64,000 nt of DNA. Origin: Methylobacter marinus A45 (GTDB taxonomy: Bacteria > Pseudomonadota > Gammaproteobacteria > Methylococcales > Methylomonadaceae). Within the stretch, counting starts at the first letter, position 1, and each line of letters opens with the position of its first letter. The translations under genes were made by a program, and so were the position numbers. The stretch is from NCBI RefSeq assembly GCF_000383855.1, contig NZ_KB912877.1, positions 688,465-752,464 on the forward strand. Direction: 5' to 3'. The notes under the pieces were generated by a model, which saw nothing but the letters and a program-made list of their open reading frames with translations, had not been told where the DNA came from and did no database searches. Shown piece after piece: positions 36,723-42,543 of this stretch.

Positions 36723-38483
36723 ATGGCAATATTTATTTGGGATACCCAATTAAGTACCGGGATTGATGAAATTGATACTCATCATCAGCAGATATTCAAA
36801 CTAATCAATAACCTGAATGAAATCATTGCCGCAAATGGAGAACATCAAATCCGCCTCAGGGCACTGGATAAGCTGGTCGCCTACATCTATTACCATTTTG
36901 ATGCCGAAGAGCATTTCATGCGCCAAAACGGCTATCCCGAGCCGTTTTTTCTCGAACATCAGATAAAACACCAGGCATTCATCAAAAAAATCGCCAAGGA
37001 ACAGCTTCGGTGCACGTCCACCCCGGAAAGAATCACGCTTGAGCTGCTTGATTTCCTGACCAACTGGTTTATCGACCATATAATCAATGTCGACAAACAG
37101 ATAGTATTAACTGTAGCCGGCGCCGAACAATCCGTCGAGGAAACCGGCGCGGGCTATGTCATCAAGGACGCTTGCCGTAACCTCTCCCGGGCAAATGACA
37201 GCCGTTTTTGGGAGTTTGCCGACAATGTGCCCGCCTTTATCTGGCTCAAGGATGAACTCAACCAGTCCATGTATTGCAATAAACACTGGCAGCAAACCAC
37301 CGGATTTACGGCGCGCGAATGCCCGGCGGCAGTATGGCTGAATTTCGTTCATCAGAATGACCGGGACCGGCTGTCAGCGGAATACGCCAGAGCTTTCGCG
37401 GAGCGTTCAACATTACAGATTGAATATCGCTTGATGTCTCACGAAGGCAATTACCTGTCCATTTTGGAAACCGCTGCACCCGGCATACTTGAAAATGACG
37501 GATTTGCCGGTTTCACAGGCTGGGGGACCAATATCTCCAGGCAAAAACAGATTGAAGCGGCACAGGCTTTGTCCGTCGAACAACTTGAAGAAATGGTCAA
37601 GAACCAGACAGAGGAATTACAGCAGACCCGGGAAATGCTTAACCGGGAAAAGGAGGCGCGGCGAGCTTTAAAAGAAAAGCTGACTGAAGCCCAAGGGCAC
37701 TTGATACAATCGGGAAAAATGGCCGCGATAGGCAAACTGGCTTCGGGCATCGCGCAGGAAATTAATAATCCGCTGGATTCCGTCTATTCCAATCTGAACA
37801 CCCTGAAACAATTTCTACACAATATCAACCGCCTTACCGATATGACCAAACGCCTTGCCGGACAGCTTCCGCATGACAATAGCGAAGTGACGGCCTTCAA
37901 TGCGCTTAAAAAGCAACTGGCTCCGGCATCGCTAATCGATGACTTGAATGGCCGGTTGAAAGCGGCGATAGCAGATGCCGACCGGGCCCAAAAACTGGTC
38001 CAGGATTTATACAGCCTTGCACGTAATGATAAGCGCGATAAAGAGCCTTTCGATATTGAACAAAACCTCGACTCCATCCTGACCATCCTCAACAACGAGT
38101 TCAAATACAAGGCCGAGATTATCAAGGACTACGGCGGAATCAAGCCCGTCCGCTGCATAGGCTCTGATCTCATTCAGGTATTCATGAATTTATTGATTAA
38201 TGCCGCCCAGGCTATCGAGGGCTTCGGCAAAATCACCATCAGAACCGGTTATAAAAATTCCGACTGGCTATGGTTTGAGATTGAAGATACCGGCACAGGC
38301 ATCCCGGACTCGATAAAAAACAGAATCTTCGAGCCCTTCTTTACTACCAAACCCGCCGACAAGGTCCTCGGACTCGGACTATCCCTTTCCCATAAGATTA
38401 TCCAGGACCATCAGGGCGAATTCGTCATTGATTCCACCGTAGACCAGGGCACCCGGTTCAGAATCTATCTGCCGGCCGGTTAG
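36723..38483 (+). CDS. Hemerythrin-PAS histidine kinase-like sensor with Gln in place of the phospho-acceptor His
   Basis: Soluble 586-residue sensor, no membrane segment. Bacteriohemerythrin domain at about 1-130 with the diiron ligands in place (H20/H21, H58, E62-H64 region, H79, H83, H119, D124), suggesting O2 or NO sensing. A PAS fold follows (about 160-275), then a coiled coil (275-325), the dimerisation helices and a HATPase_c domain (about 440-585) with intact N box (NLLINAAQAI), G1 (DTGTGIP), F box and G2 (GLGLSLSH). The H box reads ASGIAQEINNPL: residue 345 is Gln (CAG, 37755-37757) where kinases of this class have His. It therefore probably cannot autophosphorylate in the usual way; phosphorelay partners are absent nearby. 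Confidence 0.85.
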   Translation: MAIFIWDTQLSTGIDEIDTHHQQIFKLINNLNEIIAANGEHQIRLRALDKLVAYIYYHFDAEEHFMRQNGYPEPFFLEHQIKHQAFIKKIAKEQLRCTSTPERITLELLDFLTNWFIDHIINVDKQIVLTVAGAEQSVEETGAGYVIKDACRNLSRANDSRFWEFADNVPAFIWLKDELNQSMYCNKHWQQTTGFTARECPAAVWLNFVHQNDRDRLSAEYARAFAERSTLQIEYRLMSHEGNYLSILETAAPGILENDGFAGFTGWGTNISRQKQIEAAQALSVEQLEEMVKNQTEELQQTREMLNREKEARRALKEKLTEAQGHLIQSGKMAAIGKLASGIAQEINNPLDSVYSNLNTLKQFLHNINRLTDMTKRLAGQLPHDNSEVTAFNALKKQLAPASLIDDLNGRLKAAIADADRAQKLVQDLYSLARNDKRDKEPFDIEQNLDSILTILNNEFKYKAEIIKDYGGIKPVRCIGSDLIQVFMNLLINAAQAIEGFGKITIRTGYKNSDWLWFEIEDTGTGIPDSIKNRIFEPFFTTKPADKVLGLGLSLSHKIIQDHQGEFVIDSTVDQGTRFRIYLPAG

Positions 38484-38716: not shown

Positions 38717-40996
38717 TTGAAAATAGCCATCTTTATTTTCTTGACCCTGTTTGCTTCTATAACGTCCTCTTCACCGTTAGAAAAAGTTACCCTTCAACTC
38801 GGCTGGAAGTACCAGTTCGAATTTGCCGGTTTCATTGCGGCAAAAGAGAAAGGTTTTTACAAAGAAGCAGGCCTTGATGTTGAGTTAAAGGAACGGGAAG
38901 CGGATATGGACGTCGTCGAGGCGGTTTTAAACGGCCAGGCCGATTACGGTATAAACGATGCCGATTTAACCCTGGTCAAGGCGCAAAACAAACCGGTTGT
39001 GCTGTTGGCGAACTACTTCAAGCGCCCGGCGCTGGTTATCATCAGCAAGCAAACGCTGCTCACGCCTTCCGACCTGATCGGCAAGAAAGTCATGATCACG
39101 GAAGAACAGTTGCGCAATAGCTCCCTGGCCTTGCTGTTAAAAGCCTTTAACATGACGGCTAATGACTTTCAGGCGATTCCTCATTCATTCGATGCGGCTG
39201 ACTTTATTCGCGGCGATATAGATGCAATGTCAGCCTTCCTGTCGAATGAGCTCTACCAGATCAGGCAATCGAAAACGCCTTACAATATCATTGATCCGTC
39301 CGCCTATGGCATCAACGCCTATCACGGCAATCTTTTTACCGCCTATTCAACTGCCGAGCATTACAGACAACGCACGCAGAAACTGATCGACGCCAGCAAC
39401 AAGGGCTGGGAATATGCGCTGAGTCACACGGAAGAAATGGCCGAACTCATTTATAACAACTACTCGCGGGAAAAGCCTCTGGACGCGCTGCTCTATGAAG
39501 CCGACATCATCAAGAAATTGATTTTGCCCGATATAAAAACGCTAGGCTCTGTCAATACAAACCTGGTCCTGCACAATTTTGACGTATTGAAAGCGGCAGA
39601 CCTGATCGATTCGTCCGCCAGCCTCAACGGCTTTTTCTTCGAAGCCGCCGCGGCATCGAAAACGCCACTGTTTTCAAAACAGGAACTCGACTACATACAA
39701 TCCCTGGAAAAAATAACGCTATGCGTAGACCCGCAGTGGATGCCCTATGAAAAAATTGAACAAGGCCAGCATATTGGCATAAGCGCCGATTATTTTAATT
39801 TGCTGCGCCAAATGATACCGACCCCGATTGAACTGGTGCCGACCAGTAATTGGACTCAATCGCTGGCATTTGCCAGACAGCGAAAATGCGATCTGTTATC
39901 GCTGGTCGTAGCGACGCCTGAACGTGAAAAAGACTGGAATTTCACCAGCCCTTACCTGAACTCACCTTTGGTTATCGCCACCCGAACAGATGAACTGTTT
40001 GTCGCCGACATCGAAAATGTGCTCAACAAGAAGCTGGGCATCGTCAAGGGTTATGCCTTTGCCGAGCTGTTGCGAAATAAATATCCGACCATCAATCTGA
40101 TTGAATTCGACACGCTTGATGAAGGCCTGAACAAGGTCGCCCAAGGCGAACTGTTCGGTTTTCTGGATTCATTGACAACCATCGGGTATGCCTTACAAAA
40201 TCATTACATCGGCGAGCTTAAAATTGCCGGTAAATTTGATGACAAGTTTGAACTCGGCATCGGCGTGCGTAATGACGATCCCATATTGCTGGCGATCTTT
40301 GAAAAGATGGTTAACGCAATTCCCGCAGCAGAGCACCAGACCATTATCAACAAATGGATCTCCGTCAAGTATGAAAAAGGCACTGATTACGGTTTGCTCT
40401 GGAAGCTGGTGGCCGGAATTGCCGTTATCGGCTTCCTGCTGCTCTACCGCAATTTCGTGCAGGCCAAATATCTTAAGGAAATTGCCGAACAGAATGAATT
40501 GCTGCTGAAACTGTCCATAACCGATAAGCTGACGCAGGTATACAATCGCGCTAAACTCGACGACATTCTGCAGGAGCAATTCGATTTATATCAACGCTAC
40601 CGGAGACCATTCAGTATCATTATGCTGGATATCGACCATTTCAAAGCCATCAACGATACCCATGGCCATCTGACCGGTGATGCCGTGTTGACCAGCATCG
40701 CCGATATCCTGAAAGGCCATATTCGGCAGACTGATATACTCGGGCGCTGGGGCGGCGAGGAATTCATGATTATTTGCCCACAGAACAGTGCCGAGAGCGC
40801 GGCCATTCTGGCGGAAAAATTAAGAGTAAAAATCAGCTCGCACCACTACAAGCATGAGCGGCGGATTTCCGCCAGTTTCGGCGTCGCGCAAATAGGCGAC
40901 GGAATGGATATCGAGCAACTGGTCAAGCGAGCCGATGACGCGCTTTATCAGGCAAAGGATCAAGGCAGAAATAGAGTAATCACACAGAGGGCTTAA
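38717..40996 (+). CDS. Periplasmic NMT1/THI5-like plus SBP3 double sensor fused to diguanylate cyclase
   Basis: A 759-residue membrane sensor. Signal peptide (1-20, from a TTG start); NMT1/THI5-like pyrimidine-precursor binding domain (about 22-310: LQLGWKYQFEFAGFIAAKEKGFYKEAGLDVEL is typical); solute-binding family 3 domain (about 330-555: CVDPQWMPYEKIEQG); one membrane helix (about 567-585); short coiled coil; GGDEF domain with intact GGEEF at 679-683 and an RQTD inhibitory site five residues before it. So it should make c-di-GMP in response to periplasmic ligands. NMT1 domains of ThiY/THI5 type bind formylaminopyrimidine or HMP, suggesting a pyrimidine cue. The next gene, a cytosine deaminase, begins 3 bp after the stop. 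Confidence 0.87.
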   Translation: MKIAIFIFLTLFASITSSSPLEKVTLQLGWKYQFEFAGFIAAKEKGFYKEAGLDVELKEREADMDVVEAVLNGQADYGINDADLTLVKAQNKPVVLLANYFKRPALVIISKQTLLTPSDLIGKKVMITEEQLRNSSLALLLKAFNMTANDFQAIPHSFDAADFIRGDIDAMSAFLSNELYQIRQSKTPYNIIDPSAYGINAYHGNLFTAYSTAEHYRQRTQKLIDASNKGWEYALSHTEEMAELIYNNYSREKPLDALLYEADIIKKLILPDIKTLGSVNTNLVLHNFDVLKAADLIDSSASLNGFFFEAAAASKTPLFSKQELDYIQSLEKITLCVDPQWMPYEKIEQGQHIGISADYFNLLRQMIPTPIELVPTSNWTQSLAFARQRKCDLLSLVVATPEREKDWNFTSPYLNSPLVIATRTDELFVADIENVLNKKLGIVKGYAFAELLRNKYPTINLIEFDTLDEGLNKVAQGELFGFLDSLTTIGYALQNHYIGELKIAGKFDDKFELGIGVRNDDPILLAIFEKMVNAIPAAEHQTIINKWISVKYEKGTDYGLLWKLVAGIAVIGFLLLYRNFVQAKYLKEIAEQNELLLKLSITDKLTQVYNRAKLDDILQEQFDLYQRYRRPFSIIMLDIDHFKAINDTHGHLTGDAVLTSIADILKGHIRQTDILGRWGGEEFMIICPQNSAESAAILAEKLRVKISSHHYKHERRISASFGVAQIGDGMDIEQLVKRADDALYQAKDQGRNRVITQRA

Positions 40997-40999
40997 AAA

Positions 41000-41452
41000 A
41001 TGACGACCAGCGAACAAGACCTGAAATTCATGGCCATGGCTTACGACCAGGCGCAAAAAAGTTACGACGAAGGCGGCCTGCCGATCGGCGCGGTTATGGT
41101 TGAAAACGGCCAGGTTTTAGCCGTGGGCCATAACAGGCGCGTTCAGGAAGGCGACCCGATCGCGCACGGTGAAATGGACTGCCTGCGTCGAGCCGGACGG
41201 CGCGGCAGTTACAAGGACGTCACGCTATACACGACGCTCAGCCCCTGCATGATGTGTGCAGGCACCATTGTTCAGTTCGGCATTAAACGCGTCGTTATCG
41301 GTGAGAAGGAAAACTTTGCCGGCAACATTGCATTTCTGGAAAGCCACGGCGTTGAAGTCGCCGTGCTTGACGACCCTCGCTGCATCGCACTGATGGCCCG
41401 GTTAATCAAGGAAAAACCTCAACTCTGGAACGAAGATATCGCCGTGGAATAA
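41000..41452 (+). CDS. Cytosine deaminase, yeast Fcy1-like
   Basis: Zinc-dependent deaminase of 150 residues in the CDA superfamily. The active site is HGEMDC (His and Glu, near residue 55) and SPCMMC (near 84-89). Over the whole length it resembles the small fungal cytosine deaminase: YDEGGLPIGAV, GHNRRVQEG, YKDVTLYTTLSPC, and an ending PQLWNEDI that matches the fungal RPQDWFEDI. This is unlike the TIM-barrel CodA of E. coli and unlike TadA. It would turn cytosine (or 5-methylcytosine) into uracil (or thymine). It is surely cotranscribed with the preceding pyrimidine-sensor-like gene. Guanine or other pyrimidine substrates remain possible. Confidence 0.82.
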   Translation: MTTSEQDLKFMAMAYDQAQKSYDEGGLPIGAVMVENGQVLAVGHNRRVQEGDPIAHGEMDCLRRAGRRGSYKDVTLYTTLSPCMMCAGTIVQFGIKRVVIGEKENFAGNIAFLESHGVEVAVLDDPRCIALMARLIKEKPQLWNEDIAVE

Positions 41453-41539: not shown

Positions 41540-41595
41540 CACTCCAGATCCTGAGTAAAATTCATAATTTATTGAATTTTATATATTTATACAAA

Positions 41596-42543
41596 ATGGC
41601 ACAGTCCTCGCTTGAGTTGTTATGTCAATTAAATCCCAAGGTGAGAGTAGGCAATACCGTGAAAAAATCCGTAAACCTGGCCATGGTCAGCAATACCGCA
41701 TTTGAAGCTGGCAAAGCGGAAAACCTGAGTCAGTACGATATCAGCAACGCGCTACAGACGACGCTGGAATTTAACGAACTGATCTCCATTTTTTGCAGCA
41801 GAATCGAATCGATGATTCCGCATAGCGGTTACGTCTATAGCAATCGGGAATTCAGCCTGGAAATTAAAAATGGCGTCTTTACCAAGCATGCCTATAGCCA
41901 TGCCTTTAAAATCGAGCAACAACCACTGGGTGAATTAAAACTGATGCGCAATCATCAGTTTACCGAGGCTGAAATCGAGTTACTGGAAACGCTGCTGCGC
42001 TATTTGATCTATCCGCTGAAAAACGCAACGCTGTTTCATCGGGCGCTGAGAATGGCGTATATGGACCCGCTGACGCAGACCCATAACAGAGCGTCCTTTA
42101 ACGACACGATAAACCGGGAAATCAGGCTGGCCATACGCCAGGCCAAGAATCTGGCCATTATTTTCCTGGACATCGACCACTTTAAAACGATTAATGATGA
42201 TTACGGCCATGATTGCGGCGATATCATGCTCGCCTCTGTCGCGGCATGGATCAAGGACAGCCTGCGTAGCAGCGATCTCATCTTCCGTTATGGCGGCGAG
42301 GAATTCGTCATCCTGTTAAGCGACACCGATCTGGCCGACGCCGAATTGCTGGCGGAAAAAATACGCGCCGCCATCGAACGGCGCACCATGACCTATGACA
42401 TGAACACCCTCAGGATGACCGCAAGCCTCGGCGTCAATGCCTTACGCGCCGACGACACGTTCGAGTCCTTCATTAAACGCGCCGATGCCGCCATGTACCA
42501 AGCCAAAAAGAACGGCAGGAACCGAGTCATAGCCGCTCGATAA
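41596..42543 (+). CDS. Diguanylate cyclase with N-terminal GAF-like domain
   Basis: Cytosolic protein of 315 residues from the ATG at 41596; a TTG at 41572 and a GTG at 41659 preceded by TAGG are alternatives. The N-terminal 140 residues (YDISNALQTTLEFNELISIF, then NATLFHRALRMAYMD) resemble GAF-type sensor domains; the C-terminal GGDEF domain has intact GGEEF in FRYGGEEFVILL and an RSSD inhibitory site. It should make c-di-GMP. It is the last gene of the signalling island, 119 bp after the deaminase, with its own promoter-like block. Confidence 0.85.
   Translation: MAQSSLELLCQLNPKVRVGNTVKKSVNLAMVSNTAFEAGKAENLSQYDISNALQTTLEFNELISIFCSRIESMIPHSGYVYSNREFSLEIKNGVFTKHAYSHAFKIEQQPLGELKLMRNHQFTEAEIELLETLLRYLIYPLKNATLFHRALRMAYMDPLTQTHNRASFNDTINREIRLAIRQAKNLAIIFLDIDHFKTINDDYGHDCGDIMLASVAAWIKDSLRSSDLIFRYGGEEFVILLSDTDLADAELLAEKIRAAIERRTMTYDMNTLRMTASLGVNALRADDTFESFIKRADAAMYQAKKNGRNRVIAAR

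Follow-up and report, generated by a model that had tools for sequence, protein, structure and literature searches.

Do a membrane-anchored diguanylate cyclase and the yeast-type cytosine deaminase encoded directly behind it belong together, or do the two genes only happen to be neighbors? The question is raised by a locus of Methylobacter marinus A45, a member of a genus of gammaproteobacterial methanotrophs. The 64,000-nt stretch analyzed (assembly GCF_000383855.1, contig NZ_KB912877.1, positions 688,465 to 752,464 of the forward strand) is referred to as the window, and the completeness of the genome from which it comes is 96.7%. In a preliminary description of this sequence the two genes had been presented as a candidate pyrimidine-responsive cyclic di-GMP (c-di-GMP) operon. 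We tentatively regard them, at a little under even chances, as a two-gene unit in which a sensor of the envelope and a base deaminase of the cytosol are loosely joined. A second version in other genera gives the pairing more interest than the single genome suggested, and yet it is weaker than an operon of fixed purpose, because the partners decay freely. The features of the two genes are as follows, in window coordinates and with lengths in amino acids (aa).

38717-40996, + strand: sensor diguanylate cyclase of 759 aa, NMT1, SBP_bac_3, transmembrane segment and GGDEF in this order (open reading frame [ORF], Pfam)
38816-39436, + strand: NMT1/THI5-like periplasmic domain, residues 34-240 (Pfam, E 7.7e-41)
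39713-40360, + strand: SBP_bac_3 periplasmic domain, residues 333-548 (Pfam, E 1.9e-20)
40388-40462, + strand: single hydrophobic segment, likely a transmembrane helix, residues ~558-582 (Kyte-Doolittle scan)
40517-40975, + strand: GGDEF domain, residues 601-753 (Pfam, E 1.5e-45)
40724-40735, + strand: RQTD, the I-site, residues 670-673 (motif upstream of GGEEF)
40751-40765, + strand: GGEEF, residues 679-683 (active-site motif of the cyclase)
40997-40999, + strand: gap of 3 bp between the sensor stop and the deaminase start (5 bp in Methylobacter luteus)
41000-41452, + strand: yeast-type cytosine deaminase of 150 aa with an ATG start (ORF, Pfam, structure-sequence search)

The coordinates, the order of domains and the intact GGEEF and I-site given in the preliminary description were all confirmed by ORFs, Pfam and motifs. 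The sensor gene starts with TTG, as it does in M. luteus, and its product has the marks of a diguanylate cyclase, namely, a GG(D/E)EF motif, an RxxD I-site and a membrane-anchored sensory N-terminus. The N-terminus was also hydrophobic in the Kyte-Doolittle scan, which together with the segment at residues ~558-582 would agree with a tandem sensor in the periplasm and a single membrane crossing ahead of the cyclase. The ratio of nonsynonymous to synonymous substitution rates (dN/dS) between the window and M. luteus was 0.136 for the sensor and 0.095 for the deaminase, indicating purifying selection on both, and the two genes are therefore not chance ORFs.

The assignment of the second gene as a fungal-type cytosine deaminase, starting 3 bp behind the first, held as well. 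Its best solved relatives were yeast cytosine deaminases (top match E 1.4e-39, 138 bits), of which 1uaq and 1ox7 matched residues 4-148 of the 150 at E ~4e-39 with the catalytic motifs intact, whereas the best tRNA adenosine deaminase (TadA) reached 73 bits. Over its whole length the protein stands nearer to the yeast enzymes than to TadA, guanine deaminase or RibD. The zinc motifs HGE (residues 56-58) and PCMMC (residues 82-86) are present, and alignments showed conservation of the Asn, Phe, Trp and Asp positions, which we take to be the base-pocket residues of the yeast enzyme. Unlike the yeast enzymes, the window protein is a bacterial member in a signaling neighborhood, and its activity is predicted. 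A TadA or RibD identity was rejected on scores far lower than those of yeast cytosine deaminase, and that of an anti-phage deaminase on a dCTP deaminase model matching only partially (residues 54-99).

The pair was not confined to the window. The genus sample comprised four genomes, namely, the window genome, M. luteus IMV-B-3098 (G074), G029 and G053, all of which carry the deaminase; gene order around it is the same in M. luteus and G029. The full sensor was found in the window and in M. luteus (81% identity), where the pair recurs in tight linkage. Upstream of the intact deaminase, scraps of the sensor remain in G053 (92 nt, alignment score 149) and G029 (~100 nt, score 87), with 0 of 100 shuffles scoring as high in either case. 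Most simply, the sensor was ancestral to the split of these species and was later lost in G029 and G053. A gain in the lineage of the window and M. luteus alone is disfavored by the same scraps.

The second version came to light in a family sample of 151 genomes, 52 of which bear a yeast-type deaminase. These 52 were searched for NMT1 and the surroundings of each deaminase were read, in a few cases only up to a contig end close to the gene. An NMT1 cyclase adjoined the deaminase in seven, the window, M. luteus, G034, G065, G015, G088 and G096, the last five representing three genera other than Methylobacter. Here the genes come in the opposite order, with an NMT1-PAS-GGDEF gene behind the deaminase on the same strand in all five. 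Domains were assigned by Pfam in G034 and G096 and by BLAST in G065, G015 and G088, and neither the two scanned sensors nor, by BLAST, the other three gave an SBP_bac_3 match. In each of the five, the sensor ORF overlaps with the stop of the deaminase gene and could start at a GTG or ATG located 8 nt ahead of the end of this stop; the G015 sensor has a longer N-terminus and its true start is less certain. The overlap persists across saturated synonymous change between genera (G096 versus G088).

Gene order and sensor architecture thus set the two versions apart, as do the NMT1 clade and the deaminase subfamily. In the NMT1 tree, the window and M. luteus fell into a clade (support 99/92) with a Sulfurimonas protein, G150 and G002, and the five second-version domains into a separate clade of ten (98/89), which includes unlinked members. 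In the deaminase tree, built on few columns and with many unresolved forks, the second-version enzymes were part of a subfamily of 37 rows, set off by a long branch with full support. Since both trees separate the two versions, the pairing would most simply have arisen at least twice. G034 may represent a further, third origin, the tree not resolving its fork, and one common origin of both linked versions was rejected on the separation in both trees. The positions of Asn, HGE, PCxxC, NF, W and EDI are retained in both deaminase subfamilies; the second subfamily (L180-L184) has PCWYCSG instead of PCMMCAG, and its substrate may differ.

What the sensor might perceive was approached through the folds of its periplasmic domains. 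The NMT1 region (residues 17-318), modeled with AlphaFold2 at a mean predicted local distance difference test score (pLDDT) of 92.6, most closely matched 3ix1 (ThiY, which binds formylaminopyrimidine; Z 30.5), 4nmy (a thiamin-bound protein; 29.8) and THI5 (26.4), and a profile search returned the same three (E 7e-26, 4e-32 and 4.9e-15, respectively). SsuA (Z 23.8) and PqqT (22.7) came next, and NrtA likewise stood below ThiY, 4nmy and THI5. These three are free binding proteins or an enzyme, whereas the window NMT1 is a domain of a sensor. Fold matches also included TauA, and PF09084 (NMT1) is, as we take it, a binding-protein family with many ligands; with SsuA, TauA and NrtA among the matches, the family name alone is therefore no sign of a pyrimidine.

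For the SBP_bac_3 domain, the best folds were the periplasmic binding protein (PBP) domain of RmcA (7ejg; template modeling score 0.90, 29% identity), presumably from Pseudomonas aeruginosa, and BvgS VFT2. The annotation of 7ejg is that of an EAL-domain protein, in contrast to the GGDEF output and the extra sensor domain ahead in the window protein. The CdgH structure 5gzs was among the sequence matches to the same domain (E 1.8e-8). According to the accessible part of its description, CdgH of Vibrio cholerae likewise couples tandem periplasmic binding-protein domains to a GGDEF output (PMC5431781). The window sensor shares with it the two binding-protein domains, the transmembrane segment and GGDEF; both CdgH domains are PBPb, whereas the distal domain of the window sensor is NMT1/THI5-like and a deaminase gene follows. 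The tandem-PBP cyclase is a known kind, and the window sensor is a new variant of it.

This variant was looked for in named genomes, with flanks of up to 6 kb fetched on each side, shorter at contig ends. Among at least 80 listed loci, 19 encode all three domains (NMT1, SBP_bac_3 and GGDEF), including M. luteus and one cut by a contig end; the hosts among the matches listed are mostly Sulfurimonas, Sulfuricurvum and other Campylobacterota, plus Hydrogenovibrio. M. luteus alone has a deaminase there, the 18 other three-domain loci among the matches listed having none in the fetched flanks. In the family, the sensors nearest to that of the window (G150, 44% identity; G002, 42%) were not accompanied by a deaminase within the 8 and 19 kb read, and the NMT1-PAS sensor used as a query at E ≤ 1e-70 was matched in 57 of the 151 genomes.

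A precedent for purine-type ligands of NMT1/THI5-like proteins is provided by purine operons under a xanthine riboswitch (the NMT1 motif), e.g., in Hydrogenophaga. In the part of that account available to us, NMT1/THI5-like genes occur there with base or nucleoside deaminases, one of them tadA-like, the authors see no relation to thiamin, and signaling enzymes are not described (PMC7373994). Uracil, as far as the available part of another account goes, is sensed by a dCache domain, of a fold class different from NMT1 (PMC12415202). Riboswitch control of the present loci was rejected, Rfam at the gathering score giving no match in the window, L065 or L180-L184.

The findings that weigh against a two-gene unit concern the linkage, residues of the NMT1 domain and the fate of the base. 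On the side of linkage, it is quite possible, if on the doubtful side, that a cyclase merely landed beside a housekeeping deaminase and that the second version is a coincidence of one lineage, inherited thereafter. No NMT1 gene was found beside the deaminase in 45 of the 52 family genomes, two of which retain sensor scraps, or in any of the 24 genomes that carry the deaminase outside the family, drawn from a class sample of 369 (26 positive, two within the family) by setting NMT1 positions at E ≤ 1e-10 against deaminase positions. The deaminase, at the cut-off of E ≤ 1e-30 used in whole-genome searches, was found in only 2 of 23 named NMT1-cyclase genomes (G535 and G523, searched whole), outside the fetched flanks of the sensor. 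Sensors of the second version, taken at ≥69% identity, were present in 11 of the 151 family genomes, only four of which have an intact adjacent deaminase, and six (G022, G024, G048, G070, G102 and G114) have no yeast-type deaminase anywhere at that cut-off. Directly upstream of the sensor, clear deaminase scraps remain in G070 (score 258) and G010 (score 188), with 0 of 100 shuffles as high in either. Faint scraps are present in G114 (0/100), G024 (1/100) and G048 (0/100); no scrap beyond shuffles was found in G102 (5/100 as high) or G022 (23/100). Related deaminases in G083, G143 and G109 stand ahead of the same downstream gene (in G065 Pfam names it glyQ; 97% identical), with neither sensor nor scrap at the locus, and at seven loci of g16 genomes lacking the sensor no scrap of it was seen behind the deaminase. 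In their tree, the second-version deaminases that are linked to a sensor do not group together but are interspersed with unlinked ones. Within Methylobacter, the deaminase was kept under selection without a full sensor in two of the four congeners (dN/dS 0.058, G053 versus G029), where it is intact beside mere scraps and so does not need the sensor. Loss has thus struck either partner; because each outlives the other, neither is an obligate cofactor of the other, and the linkage supports nothing beyond a common ecological theme or class of ligand.

Against mere neighborhood speak the two versions, which draw on different deaminase subfamilies and different NMT1 clades, and the same-strand overlap kept in all five second-version genomes across saturated synonymous change. 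From 149 NMT1 matches listed in 48 deaminase genomes outside the genus, and an assumed 0.95-0.85 genes per kb, 0.037-0.041 same-strand immediate neighbors would be expected by chance, against five seen. These five amount to only one or two further origins; the chance probability is ~0.04 for one and 0.0007-0.0008 for two. An excess of such neighbors over chance is suggestive, not proof. The operon of the preliminary description accordingly stands in part. Its author had named an unlinked deaminase in relatives as what would speak against it; linkage holds in M. luteus and, in the second version, elsewhere, seven of the 52 family genomes in all with scraps in two more, and fails in the remainder, outside the family and at the 18 other loci among the matches listed. 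On the side of the ligand, the sensor might answer a methylotrophy compound unrelated to bases (a C1-related compound or redox cofactor at NMT1) or an amino acid (arginine-like at SBP_bac_3, as in CdgH), the deaminase being incidental, which we consider distinctly unlikely. It would agree with the closeness of the SBP_bac_3 domain to RmcA PBP and BvgS VFT2, with the binding of amino acids by the PBPb domains of CdgH as given in the accessible part of its description (PMC5431781), with the match of PqqT to the NMT1 model, and with a second NMT1-GGDEF gene of the window genome lying ~117 bp after formylmethanofuran-pathway genes (Pfam). It agrees less well with ThiY, 4nmy and THI5 scoring 2.6-7.8 Z units above SsuA and PqqT, with a recurrent neighbor that is a base deaminase and no amino-acid enzyme, and with the sharing of that neighbor by second-version sensors without an SBP_bac_3 match (Pfam, n = 2; BLAST, n = 3). 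The active site of the hydroxymethylpyrimidine phosphate synthase THI5 is formed, in the accessible part of the source, by Lys62 and His66 (PMC10848271), which in a hand-counted alignment correspond to Asn and Leu in the window; a THI5-type synthase was ruled out on this replacement of the catalytic residues. From the W-x-P-x3-H segment common to ThiY, 4nmy and THI5, the window domain keeps only Trp, with Tyr for Pro and Phe for His, and the His column holds no His in the 23 filled rows of a 26-row subfamily alignment. The THI5/ThiY kinship claimed earlier is therefore borne out by the fold and not by these residues. With them replaced, the ligand may be another base or heterocycle; it is perhaps a small heterocycle, and a pyrimidine is neither shown nor excluded.

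In the two-gene unit that we tentatively favor, the distal ThiY-like NMT1 domain would bind a small heterocycle, most likely of a nucleobase or aminopyrimidine kind, and the proximal RmcA/BvgS-like domain would bind a second small molecule or relay movement. Domain closure would alter dimerization of the cyclase and hence the level of c-di-GMP. The deaminase would probably be translated from the same transcript and would act in the cytoplasm, on cytosine or a compound much like it, and sensing and deamination would be separable, either being lost without the other. A broader proposition is that ThiY-like NMT1 domains are periplasmic nucleobase receptors driving c-di-GMP, and that methanotrophs have at least twice paired one with a yeast-type cytosine deaminase in one operon, so that a base outside the cell is signaled and, once inside, is removed or used; we think this rather improbable.

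The fate of the base is the remaining difficulty. The standard route of cytosine salvage is CodB-CodA-Upp. In the window genome, the search for upp gave no match above the cut-off of 208 bits (best 30.6), and no match to a PF02133 (NCS1) permease was found, other permease families and uracil-salvage enzymes not having been searched. A CodB-CodA-Upp-type salvage of imported cytosine is thus not evident, and a simple story of import, deamination and salvage is weakened. The deaminase may serve in detoxification or internal base turnover, or may act on a different substrate.

To our knowledge, the signal of most diguanylate cyclases is unknown. A recurring enzyme neighbor offers a concrete ligand class for NMT1-type sensors, which are frequent in the family, and if the ligand is a nucleobase, the c-di-GMP decisions of methanotrophs would be tied to nucleic-acid turnover in their surroundings. 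A literature search, mostly without subscription papers, found nothing joining NMT1 with GGDEF or a THI5-like protein with a diguanylate cyclase. Judged by the titles listed, searches for cytosine deaminase with diguanylate cyclase, Methylobacter with cytosine deaminase, and c-di-GMP with nucleobases brought up no such pair, and no paper on bacterial relatives of yeast cytosine deaminase was found. The searched text of a census-type review of c-di-GMP stimuli has no mention of NMT1, pyrimidine, thiamin, cytosine, nucleobase or PBPb (PMC8846402).

The pair is flanked in the window by two further genes.

36723-38483, + strand: upstream neighbor, hemerythrin-PAS-histidine kinase gene (Pfam)
41572-42543, + strand: downstream neighbor, second GGDEF protein of 323 aa (Pfam)

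The second GGDEF gene is present at the locus in M. luteus and absent from the regions read of G029 and G053. In these two sensor-less congeners, the kinase gene ends before the kinase part (338 aa in G029, 335 aa in G053), a scrap of it being clear in G053, where none of 100 shuffles scored as high, and faint in G029, where one did. The hemerythrin-PAS-kinase is thus reduced to hemerythrin-PAS (L067:8004-9020; L066:1204-2211), which likely means loss of the kinase output. In G053, the remnant lies on the deaminase contig ~7 kb away with inserted genes between, the insert of ~6-7 kb containing an ORF of 1388 aa (L066:2766-9082). In G003, a TIR-domain protein (495 aa; L068:7442-8929) is convergent beside a 70%-identical yeast-type deaminase.

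Elsewhere in the window genome, the second NMT1-GGDEF protein (549 aa; L191:6648-8297, C1 ~3490.6-3492.3 kb) is preceded by genes with Pfam matches to Amidohydro_3, FTR and GXGXG; it has relatives at L085, L086 and L088, and NMT1 relatives occur in all four congeners. An odd signaling and transport cluster (L192:5575-10889) encodes a free NMT1 protein (398 aa), then a Cache-HAMP-SpoIIE protein and next a protein that combines three SBP_bac_3 stretches with a permease domain.

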